From positions 62,001 through 126,000 of the forward strand of contig NZ_QLZR01000001.1 of the NCBI RefSeq assembly GCF_003289955.1: 64,000 bases of DNA, written 5' to 3'. Position 1 is the stretch's first letter, and the number at the start of each line of letters is the position of its first letter. Source of the DNA: Planococcus halotolerans. Lineage in GTDB: Bacteria; Bacillota; Bacilli; Bacillales_A; Planococcaceae. A program made the position numbers and the translations under genes. Positions 2,915 through 60,340 of this stretch are shown one piece after another. The notes below the pieces were generated by a model. That model was not told where the DNA came from, did not search any database, and saw nothing but the letters and a program-made list of their open reading frames with translations.

Positions 2915-3551
2915 GCGTGTCTCTTCTTTTGATGAAAGCCGATTGAAAAGTCGGCACGTTAAGTAAAATGTGCTATACGTCACCAAATCACAGCTATACG
3001 ACACCAAACAGAATCTATACGACACTAAATCTCCGCTATACGTCACCATATCTCCACCCAAACGAGTCAACCCACTATTAGCCAAGATCGGGCGGCGGCC
3101 GAAGCGCCGCCCAATGGGCAGTCCGCAGCTCGCGGCGGACTGCTTTCCATTCAAATGTACTTTTCTTTTGGTGAGAGCCGGAGGAAAAGTCGGCACGTTA
3201 AGTAGAATGTGCTATACATCAGCAAACCGTCTCTATACGTAAACAAAATCATTCTATACGACACTAAATCTCCGCTATACGACAACATAACCTCCACCCA
3301 AGCGAGTCAACCCACTATCAGCCAAGATCGGGCGGCGGCCGAAGCGCCGCCCACTGGGCAGTCCGCTGCTCGCGGCGGACTGCTTTCCATTCAGATGTAC
3401 TTTTCTTTTGGTGAGAGCCAGAGGAAAAGTCGGCACGTTAAGTCAATCCCGCTATACGTCACCAAATCACAGCTATACGACACCAAACAGAATCTATACG
3501 ACACTAAATCACCGCTATACGTCACCATGTCTCCACCCAAACGACTCAACC
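2915..3551. repeat. Composite intergenic repeat cluster I (three units, phased 21-nt iterations)
   Basis: About 640 nt holding three tandem copies of a roughly 240-nt module. Each module carries four CTATACG cores at exact 21-nt spacing (2973, 2994, 3015, 3036; 3212, 3233, 3254, 3275; 3452, 3473, 3494, 3515). These are followed by a conserved tail in the first two modules with two GC-rich hairpins: GGGCGGCGGCC...GCCGCCC and GCAGTCCGC...GCGGACTGC. The module ends in a conserved CGGCACGTTA that leads into the next unit. Because 21 nt is seven codons, open frames with heptad-like repeats appear on both strands. I treat those as by-products. A second cluster lies at 6418-7018. Confidence 0.9.
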
Positions 3552-6417: not shown

Positions 6418-7018
6418 GCCGTTATACGACAGCAAACAGATTCTATACGACACTTTAACTCCGCTATACGTTAACAAAAACAATCTATACGACACTAAAT
6501 CTCCGCTATCCGACAGCATAACCTCCACCCAAGCAAGTCAACCCACTATCGGCAAAAATCGGGCGACGGGCGAAGCCCCGCCCACTGGGCAGTCCGCGGG
6601 CAGCGGACTGCTTTCCGTTTGAATGCACTTTTCTCCCGATGCAACCCGCAAAAAAATCCGGCACGTTACGTAAAATGCGCTATACGTCAACAAACCAACG
6701 CTATACGTCAGCAAAAACAACCTATACGACACTAACCGCCAGTTATACGACACTATCCGCCAGCTATACGACAGCATAAGCTTCACCCAAGCGAGGCAAC
6801 TCACTATTACCCAAAATCGGGCGGCGGCCGAAGCCCCGCCCACTGGGCAGTCCGCCGACAGCGGACTGCTTTCCATTTGAATGCACTTTTCTTTTGATGC
6901 AACCCGCATGTAAACACGACACGTTACGTAAAATGCGCTATACGTCAACAAACCATCGCTATACGTCAGCATAAACAATCTATACGACACTAACCGCCAG
7001 CTATACGACACTAAAACC
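6418..7018. repeat. Composite intergenic repeat cluster II (phased 21-nt iterations)
   Basis: Same family as 2915-3551. Cores [C/T]TATACG stand at 6422, 6443, 6464, 6485, 6506; 6680, 6701, 6722, 6743, 6764; and 6938, 6959, 6980, 7001, every step exactly 21 nt. Between the blocks lie the GC-rich module with hairpin GCAGTCCGC(GGGCA)GCGGACTGC near 6589-6611 and a second copy near 6848-6870. The cluster has five, five and four cores per module, against four each in cluster I. Apart from the repeat I see no gene in the roughly 820-nt interval 6283-7106. Confidence 0.9.
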
Positions 7019-7070
7019 ACTCCATCCGACAACGCCCCCAGACCAGACCAAACAAAACCACCCCAAACAA

Positions 7071-31053: not shown

Positions 31054-31077
31054 AAGGATCAGCCTCGCTTTATTATT

Positions 31078-31196
31078 GTCTAGTCTCCAACGGCCCAGCT
31101 CTTCGGGTCATAAGCCAGTATAGCTTTGCGGCAAAAACCGCCGCTCCGCTATCCTGTCTTATGCCTTTCAGAGCTTAACGGGCGCTTGCGCTTTTC
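31078..31196 (-). repeat. Long-hairpin repeat, copy 3 (between upp and mnaA)
   Basis: Second of two tandem head-to-tail copies in the upp-mnaA gap. Arms pair as in the other copies (GCTCT/AGAGC, CATAAG/CTTATG); the centre differs (GCGGC/GCCGC, ATAGC/GCTAT), with compensatory-looking changes. It ends about 25 nt before the mnaA start. Confidence 0.85.
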
Positions 31197-31200
31197 TATT

Positions 31201-31320
31201 GTCCAGTCTCCAGCGGCCCAGCTCTTCGGGTCATAAGCCACTTCGGCTGTGCGGCTGAAAACATGCCGCTTCGCCAAATCGTCTTATGCCTTTCAGAGCT
31301 TAACGGGCGCCTTCGCTTTT
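31201..31320 (-). repeat. Long-hairpin repeat, copy 4 (after upp)
   Basis: Starts 2 nt after the upp stop in sense direction, with AAAAGCGAAGGCGCCCGTTA. Directly followed by copy 3 in the same orientation. Confidence 0.85.
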
Positions 31321-31322
31321 CT

Positions 31323-42027: not shown

Positions 42028-42080
42028 GTGTTTTTCTCCTCTCGCCCTGAACCATCCGGAACAGAGTTTAATCTATTTTA

Positions 42081-51512: not shown

Positions 51513-51672
51513 AGTTAATCATCCTTTATGGCCCACGTGCAATTTCTTCTATTATAACTGAGTTTCCTGAATATATCGAATAGCATTTCGGATCAATCCG
51601 GAGAGCCGGCTGTATGTTGCCCCACATGTCAGTCACATGCAGATTTGTGCTGAACGTACGCAAGCGGGCGTT

Positions 51673-51792
51673 AATCGCGCGTAAATCTGTTTAATCGCCC
51701 ACAAATCATTTTATTCGCCCATATTTTTTTCTAATCGCCCATAAACTTTTCTAATCGCCCATAACTCGATTTAATCGCCCACAACTTCCAAA
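51673..51792. repeat. Phased 20-nt repeat array (AATCGCCCATAA cores)
   Basis: Six cores related to AATCGCCCATAAA at 51673, 51693, 51713, 51733, 51753 and 51773: exact 20-nt steps with T-rich variable spacers. Located between the icmF terminator and the 53-residue gene. Architecture as in the 21-nt arrays at 2915, 6418 and 60202 but with a different core. The rest of the 51513-51857 gap shows no gene. Confidence 0.9.
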
Positions 51793-60201: not shown

Positions 60202-60340
60202 AATCGACGATAAATGGTGAAAAATCGACGATAAACTCATGAAAATCGACGATAAACCTTTAAAAATCGACGATAAATACCGGAATCGCTGATAAATCAA
60301 GAAAAATCGCTGATAAACCTCTGAAAACCGCTGATAAATA
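60202..60340. repeat. Phased 21-nt repeat array (AATCGACGATAAA / AATCGCTGATAAA cores)
   Basis: Seven 13-nt cores at 60202, 60223, 60244, 60265, 60284, 60305 and 60326 (steps 21, 21, 21, 19, 21, 21). The first four are of type AATCGACGATAAA. The last three are of type AATCGCTGATAAA, with one AACCG variant. Located just upstream of the acyl-CoA operon; spacers are variable. Confidence 0.9.

Follow-up and report, generated by a model that had tools for sequence, protein, structure and literature searches.

The closest known systems to the arrays described here are the STAR and BOX repeats and the iterons of plasmids. BOX elements of Streptococcus pneumoniae are modular and intergenic, with a repeated middle module, and they form one family that is not known to include a 21-nt phased array; what our locus shares with them is modularity, here in the form of an array joined to a two-hairpin tail. 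Lrp/AsnC-type wrapping proteins use quasi-palindromic sites every 21 bp and wrap about 100 bp, and the same two-turn period recurs in our arrays, whose cores, unlike those sites, are not palindromic. CRISPR repeats measure about 23-47 nt and alternate with unique spacers of similar length. Iterons of theta plasmids are direct repeats of about 17-22 bp, in head-to-tail copies at fixed helical phase (about 3-6 copies, 21/22 nt apart, in the Rep_3 type) and resemble our arrays in this, whereas the genome studied here has no Rep_3 gene, no initiator was seen among the scanned neighbours and no significant sequence match was obtained. STAR elements of staphylococci are interspersed intergenic direct repeats of unknown function, with loci that expand and contract and with locus- or lineage-specific sequences; they have one motif, most loci hold a single copy of it, and the loci differ in each species (PMC3532100). 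The Planococcus arrays, from the same order of bacteria, are likewise interspersed, intergenic, direct and variable in copy number, but differ from STAR by their 20-21-nt phase, their 4-6 units, their many cores and the exchange of these cores where the flanking genes stay the same. The TAACTGA direct repeats of Beggiatoaceae, which are intergenic sets of 2-6 scattered over the genome and proposed to be regulatory, differ in being tandem 7-nt repeats of one sequence, found particularly upstream of start codons (PMC4679880).

The window, that is, the whole 64,000-nt stretch of Planococcus halotolerans DNA that was analysed, holds two clusters of CTATACG cores and two arrays with other cores, as follows (strand is given where one was assigned).

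2952..2972, plus strand: degenerate unit before array 1, CGGCACG replacing CTATACG (our reading)
2973..3056, plus strand: array 1, four units of 21 nt, core CTATACGnCACYAAA
3090..3112: tail hairpin H1
3118..3143: tail hairpin H2, GCAGTCCGC...GCGGACTGC
3191..3211 and 3431..3451: degenerate units before arrays 2 and 3 (our reading)
3212..3295, plus strand: array 2, four units, CTATACA as first core
3330..3352: hairpin H1, copy 2
3358..3383: hairpin H2, copy 2
3452..3535, plus strand: array 3, four units
6422..6526, plus strand: second cluster, five-unit array (TTATACG, three CTATACG, CTATCCG)
6561..6611: second-cluster tail, H1 and H2
6680..6784, plus strand: second cluster, five-unit array, one core TTATACG
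6819..6869: second-cluster tail, H1 and H2, copy 2
6938..7021, plus strand: second cluster, four-unit array
51671..51786, plus strand: six-unit array of 20-nt period with another core (TTAATCGCCCATAAA type)
60202..60338, plus strand: seven-unit array (spacings 21, 21, 21, 19, 21, 21), cores AATCGACGATAAA then AATCGCTGATAAA

The first-pass annotation had described the first cluster as twelve CTATACG cores in exact 21-nt register inside a tandem composite of 240 nt, each block joined to a GC-rich two-hairpin tail. The tail and a composite repeat of about 240 nt are indeed present. The cores start at 2973, 2994, 3015 and 3036, at 3212, 3233, 3254 and 3275, and at 3452, 3473, 3494 and 3515; eleven of the twelve are exact CTATACG, the one at 3212 being CTATACA. 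The register holds inside each block, but the block starts lie 239 and 240 nt apart, distances that are not multiples of 21, so that phase is lost from block to block. CGGCACG stands one register step ahead of each of these blocks and of the block at 6680, and as a degenerate unit in register it allows the blocks to be read with one extra unit. The second cluster (6422-7021) comprises 14 units, and over the whole window the pattern CTATACG-N14-CTATACG is matched 15 times, compared with none in 100 dinucleotide-preserving shuffles. Beside the array at 51671..51786 we read a terminator-like hairpin, and a thiolase gene lies downstream of the array at 60202..60338, whose core AATCGACGATAAA is common to unlinked arrays, at C1:122k, C10:371k and C11:174k, with mostly different spacers.

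Other elements share the window. A repeat of about 123 nt in two copies with ‘GCCCAGCTCTTCGGGTCATAAG’ (31062-31322) looks like another interspersed repeat, and a stretch resembling it follows the array at C1:138.6 kb and the G039 ortholog of that array. At the gathering threshold the sole Rfam match in the window is an L31-Firmicutes ribosomal protein leader at 42036-42066 on the minus strand.

Phased intergenic arrays are a real and widespread class. It had been suggested that the host genome (3.62 Mb in 17 contigs) be searched for further clusters, and the search succeeded: apart from the second cluster in the window there are 40 exact CTATACG pairs in the genome (35 at C1:28-69 kb, 4 at C11:79-100 kb and 1 on C17), as well as arrays with other cores. 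The named loci whose PanF is 98-99% identical to that of this genome belong to Planococcus and Planomicrobium, and CTATACG pairs occur in 5 of 46 genomes of the genus. Our set of arrays, 101 after duplicate removal, was sought at lags 20-22, 40-42 and 61-63 only, and the unbiased evidence for the period therefore comes from open lag scans. When any lag of 10-49 nt was admitted in 20 stretches from the genus, some of them picked for holding CTATACG pairs, 78 of 85 segments fell at lags 21 (52), 42 (21) or 20/40 (5), the seven others each being at a different lag. In 526 kb of contig C1, 37 of 47 periodic segments had lag 21 (16), 42 (15), 20 (3) or 40 (3), and seven of the 10 off-lag segments were at 41, 60, 61 or 63; two Markov-simulated copies gave no periodic segment at lags 10-63.

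The class extends beyond the genus. Among 80 named loci around PanF, arrays were found in Planococcus, Bhargavaea, Edaphobacillus, Psychrobacillus, Paenisporosarcina, Sporosarcina, Cytobacillus and Halobacillus, while the loci of ten other genera yielded no segment; in this survey, where runs of N and coding repeats form the noise at other lags, the repeats of Chryseomicrobium and Tetzosporium look coding and that of Evansella has a period of 58 nt. In twenty 20-kb stretches taken from other genera of this family, six rows appeared: two we judged to be coding repeats, and three or four to be arrays (L303, two in L318, perhaps L301). Abundance is uneven, with only two arrays in 20 stretches (400 kb) of G014, as seen by a detector that is blind to arrays less than about 70% alike. 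The earlier annotation had named in advance what would speak against it, namely a lack of other clusters in the genome and a spacing that was unconserved or drifted freely in relatives; what was found are further clusters and a spacing of 21 or 20 nt kept in several genera. Searches of open-licence papers turned up no title or abstract opening that reports intergenic arrays with a 21-nt period from Planococcus, Planococcaceae or Bacillales, which is weak evidence of absence.

The strict 21-nt spacing that had been claimed holds as the main period, alongside which steps of 20, 19 and 22 nt occur. One of the 101 arrays, a CTATACG array within a long ORF whose frame we take as spurious, was set aside, and the remaining 100 gave 598 unit spacings: 432 at 21 nt, 71 at 20, 23 at 19 and 5 at 22, the rest being junctions, missed units or coding repeats. 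After removal of six coding-like arrays, the commonest unit counts among the 94 left were five (37 arrays), four (18) and six (14), and the long arrays L089, L130 and L143 proved to be chained blocks with junctions of 18, 19 or 29 nt. The conserved part of a unit spans, by eye, about 13-16 nt, and every array has a core peculiar to it, asymmetric and about 13 nt long, between whose copies the bases vary; core columns were defined as those in which the units of an array agree with one another, and the seed width was set by us at 13. Within arrays the cores agree and the spacers vary. The claim that this is not CRISPR stands, given whole units of 20-21 nt with a conserved part of about 13-16 nt, and no cas genes were seen among 30 scanned neighbour proteins.

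Loose clustering yields 30 core types. Palindromes are in no excess in the cores over shuffled cores (P 0.6), and palindromic dimer sites were dropped as a candidate on that account. A motif common to all cores, TARA-like and convincing by eye, was also given up as not significant (P 0.07, 0.09 and 0.30). Among seven harmonics tested on 30 flavour representatives, A+T content within the unit shows extra power at 10.5 nt (P 0.006, a weak signal) and less at 21 nt (P 0.04).

The arrays are intergenic, and they are unevenly distributed among kinds of gap. When gaps of 150 nt or more are counted in C1 pooled with a 380-kb stretch of G039, an array is present in 10 of the 50 between convergent genes, in 13 of the 157 between co-directional genes and in 2 of the 62 between divergent genes, which amounts to convergent enrichment at P 0.012 and divergent depletion at P 0.08, the gap classes being approximate because genes were taken as plain long ORFs. 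Array strand is independent of gene direction: the arrays at C1:59-61 kb are on the minus and those at C1:64-69 kb on the plus strand, and the genes are on the minus strand at both. The neighbouring genes are unrelated. Of 30 array-neighbour proteins (29 of 38 flanking entries plus the thiolase), Pfam placed 28 in unrelated families and left two without a match, and a regulon was dropped as an explanation. No clear lasting switch of GC skew accompanies the clusters in the stretches inspected, and the replication terminus was likewise abandoned as a candidate. One stretch of the genome (L191, C1:426001-446000) holds a SelB gene, identified by Pfam, at about C1:430.5-432.7 kb, near which we read a candidate selenocysteine tRNA just before a 20/21-nt array.

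A comparison of strains had been proposed as a check on copy number, and between species whole units prove to be gained or lost: the genome studied here and three relatives differ by entire units. Around PanF, arrays were detected in 15 of 29 Planococcus stretches and in none of the other 14 at the threshold used. One interval between conserved genes there, F5-F11, which also holds other ORFs in some species, holds arrays of four or more core types across seven species, and five further intervals have arrays in more than one species, with cores that differ in four of them. In different species one pair of conserved genes can enclose arrays with different cores.

Cores are also better conserved than their surroundings. 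We compared 21 array/species pairs, eight of which had at most two gapped positions in the array, and counted identities by hand. Two of the eight were set aside, 340271/G039 as another array and 145877/G003 as a poor alignment, and in the six remaining orthologous pairs (five arrays) the core is identical at 380 of 408 positions (93%), the spacer at 216 of 325 (66%) and the flank at 1363 of 1815 (75%). With both set-aside pairs included, the eight give 460/553 for core, 253/411 for spacer and 1725/2473 for flank, and all 21 give 956/1200, 510/869 and 4438/5894. Array 235637 behaves in the opposite way (core 82%, flank 89%). That cores are conserved above spacers and flanks speaks against simple tandem duplication; it points to the core being recognised as DNA, probably by a protein that binds cooperatively.

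We favour, tentatively and with a probability of about 0.45, the reading that the arrays are DNA-level platforms for a cooperatively binding protein, with exchangeable words. Such a platform would usually consist of 4-6 asymmetric sites, each some 13-16 bp long, that follow one another head to tail at intervals of two helical turns, which may allow a protein to bind cooperatively along one face of the helix. The idea of sites on one face had already been put forward; directional, non-palindromic cores that are conserved above spacers and flanks agree with it, and the cooperative platform itself goes a step further. Since the arrays are intergenic, commoner between convergent genes and seldom found between divergent ones, they may act at boundaries between transcription units, as a roadblock, insulator or anchoring point, and would not be promoter elements. 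Copy number shifts by entire units; the recognised sequence would drift and be replaced over time, with phase preserved and, in several cases, position as well. Several observations count against this reading. No binding protein for the arrays was found, which is why the platform is something we infer, together with its protein reader, the cooperativity of that reader and the boundary role; what the data show is the period, the intergenic position, the stronger conservation of cores, the change by entire units and the differing cores between shared conserved genes. The unrelated neighbour genes mean that no regulon is visible, and many cores per genome mean that one sequence-specific reader would be insufficient and that many readers, or a shape reader, would be needed. 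Orthologous arrays are moreover nearly absent or replaced in places, as in G039, where array 418132 is reduced to about one unit and array 340271 is replaced by GGACAGTATTT units in opposite orientation.

The main rival, which we rate as possible, though distinctly less so than the platform, is that the arrays are selfish or neutral minisatellites without function, generated by tandem duplication and slippage with a strong mechanical bias to 20-21 nt and spread locally. The change of copy number by whole units fits this, as do the occasional absence or replacement of arrays, the local duplication of composite blocks and the restriction of the CTATACG flavour to 5 of 46 species. Duplication would, however, copy core and spacer alike, whereas spacers differ where cores agree and cores change more slowly between species; the homogenisation of whole units, spacers included, that is expected of a minisatellite or VNTR is met only for blocks within composites. 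To our knowledge, no mechanism yields solely 20-21-nt duplications.

A bolder and rather unlikely possibility is chromosome-wide addressing, in which phased protein-binding arrays sit at fixed places while two unlinked regions change their word in concert, CTATACG with its partner TATCTTACG serving in one clade and AGTTCATGTA in another. In the PanF region, CTATACG arrays and TATCTTACG arrays have a common tail of two GC-rich hairpins, and in G029 the two kinds of array take turns along a tandem series, separated by copies of this tail. Nine proteins of the second dense region of our genome (C11:70-110 kb) have relatives in the same order at 590-630 kb in G006, and eight of the nine have relatives in G008; the arrays there are of the AGTTCATGTA type in both genomes. 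Exact AGTTCATGTA pairs lie at 594-625 or 2,572-2,711 kb in all cases, 7 of 7 in G006 and 15 of 15 in G008, and the type is present in 9 of 46 genomes. From this placement of CTATACG/TATCTTACG and of AGTTCATGTA it follows that both dense regions carry one set of types per clade, which could come from a shared reader or from exchange between the regions. The exchange might be driven by DNA-binding proteins of a family that changes fast or by a conflict with the initiators of plasmids, and the situation could be likened, as an analogy, to eukaryotic centromere satellites and their readers. In G006 and G008, whose records measure 3.31 and 3.42 Mb, one dense region (at about 0.60 Mb) is some 0.6 Mb from one end of the record and the other (at 2.57-2.71 Mb) some 0.7 Mb from the other end. 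In G017, a perfect run of GGTTG units (L077:19040-19106) lies inside a dense array region.

We consider it improbable that the arrays are decoys or relics of iterons, chromosomal copies that titrate or handcuff incoming Rep_3 initiators and whose cores change in an arms race. The likeness to iterons noted by the first-pass annotation is borne out in architecture, and the link in sequence to real plasmid iterons found no support in our tests. In period, copy number and head-to-tail order the arrays match the repeats before Planococcus plasmid Rep_3 genes: 25 of 30 Rep_3 loci of the genus have 21- or 22-nt repeats, and these loci together with the plasmid records gave 28 distinct units, 15 with a length of 21 nt and 13 with one of 22 nt, that come in about 3-6 copies. 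Rep_3 genes occur in 18 of 46 genomes and are absent from the genome studied here, and no replication initiator was seen among the 30 scanned proteins near C1 arrays. A AGTTCATGTA-type array has one match in 72,556 plasmids, to Lysinibacillus pFN9D (78% over 70 nt, E 8e-3), where it falls on 21/22-nt repeats; some 97 bp further on begins a rep gene whose product is a Rep_3 initiator. Relatives of this initiator are found on plasmids of Planococcus, Sporosarcina, Psychrobacillus, Lysinibacillus, Carnobacterium and Desemzia and, distantly, of two more genera. Five arrays reached the floor of P 0.003 against iterons, which is suggestive and uncorrected for the best of 28 iterons and for 94 arrays.

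Against decoys stand a position weight matrix of 12 iteron units (P 0.23) and three submotif tests (P 0.07, 0.09 and 0.30), each run on 30 flavour representatives against shuffled units. Three other arrays had no plasmid match and two no phage match, and three flavour patterns gave 0, 1 and 1 matches in viral contigs, both of them pairs and not longer arrays. Iterons of the ACTTTCGGTC type occur, at up to two mismatches, in 9 of 46 genomes, in seven of them beside Rep_3 genes, while in the other two a larger contig holds just one imperfect pair. Plasmid iterons are, furthermore, conserved across the entire unit, the chromosomal units in part only. Carriage by mobile elements was itself rejected, as the CTATACG composite has no plasmid or phage match and the viral matches are mere pairs, one of them inside an ORF. 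As for pFN9D (L268, L269), its 81 kb string together six near-copies of a unit measuring about 13.5 kb, which bears the same Rep_3 gene along with cfr and lsa(B), genes that some copies have in split form, and the 8.3-kb plasmid pNM8 of P. citreus has the rep gene and several neighbours in common with it.

An RNA-level element, in which transcribed arrays would serve as repeated binding sites in 3' regions or in a small RNA ending in the two hairpins, seems slightly less probable still than decoys. Several arrays do lie, by eye, near gene ends and terminator-like hairpins, and each pair of the tail hairpins is broken in at most 2 of 42 tails (seven sets of stretches), with two pairs of H2 changed on both sides. 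Yet the arrays stand some before and some beyond such hairpins, their orientation relative to neighbouring genes is inconstant, a period of two DNA turns would be unexpected in RNA, and no Rfam family falls on the window arrays at the gathering threshold. A coding repeat of seven codons can be dismissed almost completely: open frames of 64 to 193 aa do run through the window arrays, but hairpin tails interrupt the repeats, and 20-nt arrays and 19-nt steps break the frame, the former refuting the idea for the class, which fits the earlier view that the coding potential is an artefact.

Many bacteria are known to have interspersed intergenic repeats, but we know of no other repeat class that is set by helical phase and not by sequence, with turnover of the word at retained places. 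The arrays may account for spurious repeat-bearing ORFs in these genomes. As platforms for a binding protein, the class predicts DNA readers that nobody has looked for, and places where the same position and the same phase carry a different word would offer natural experiments for finding them.
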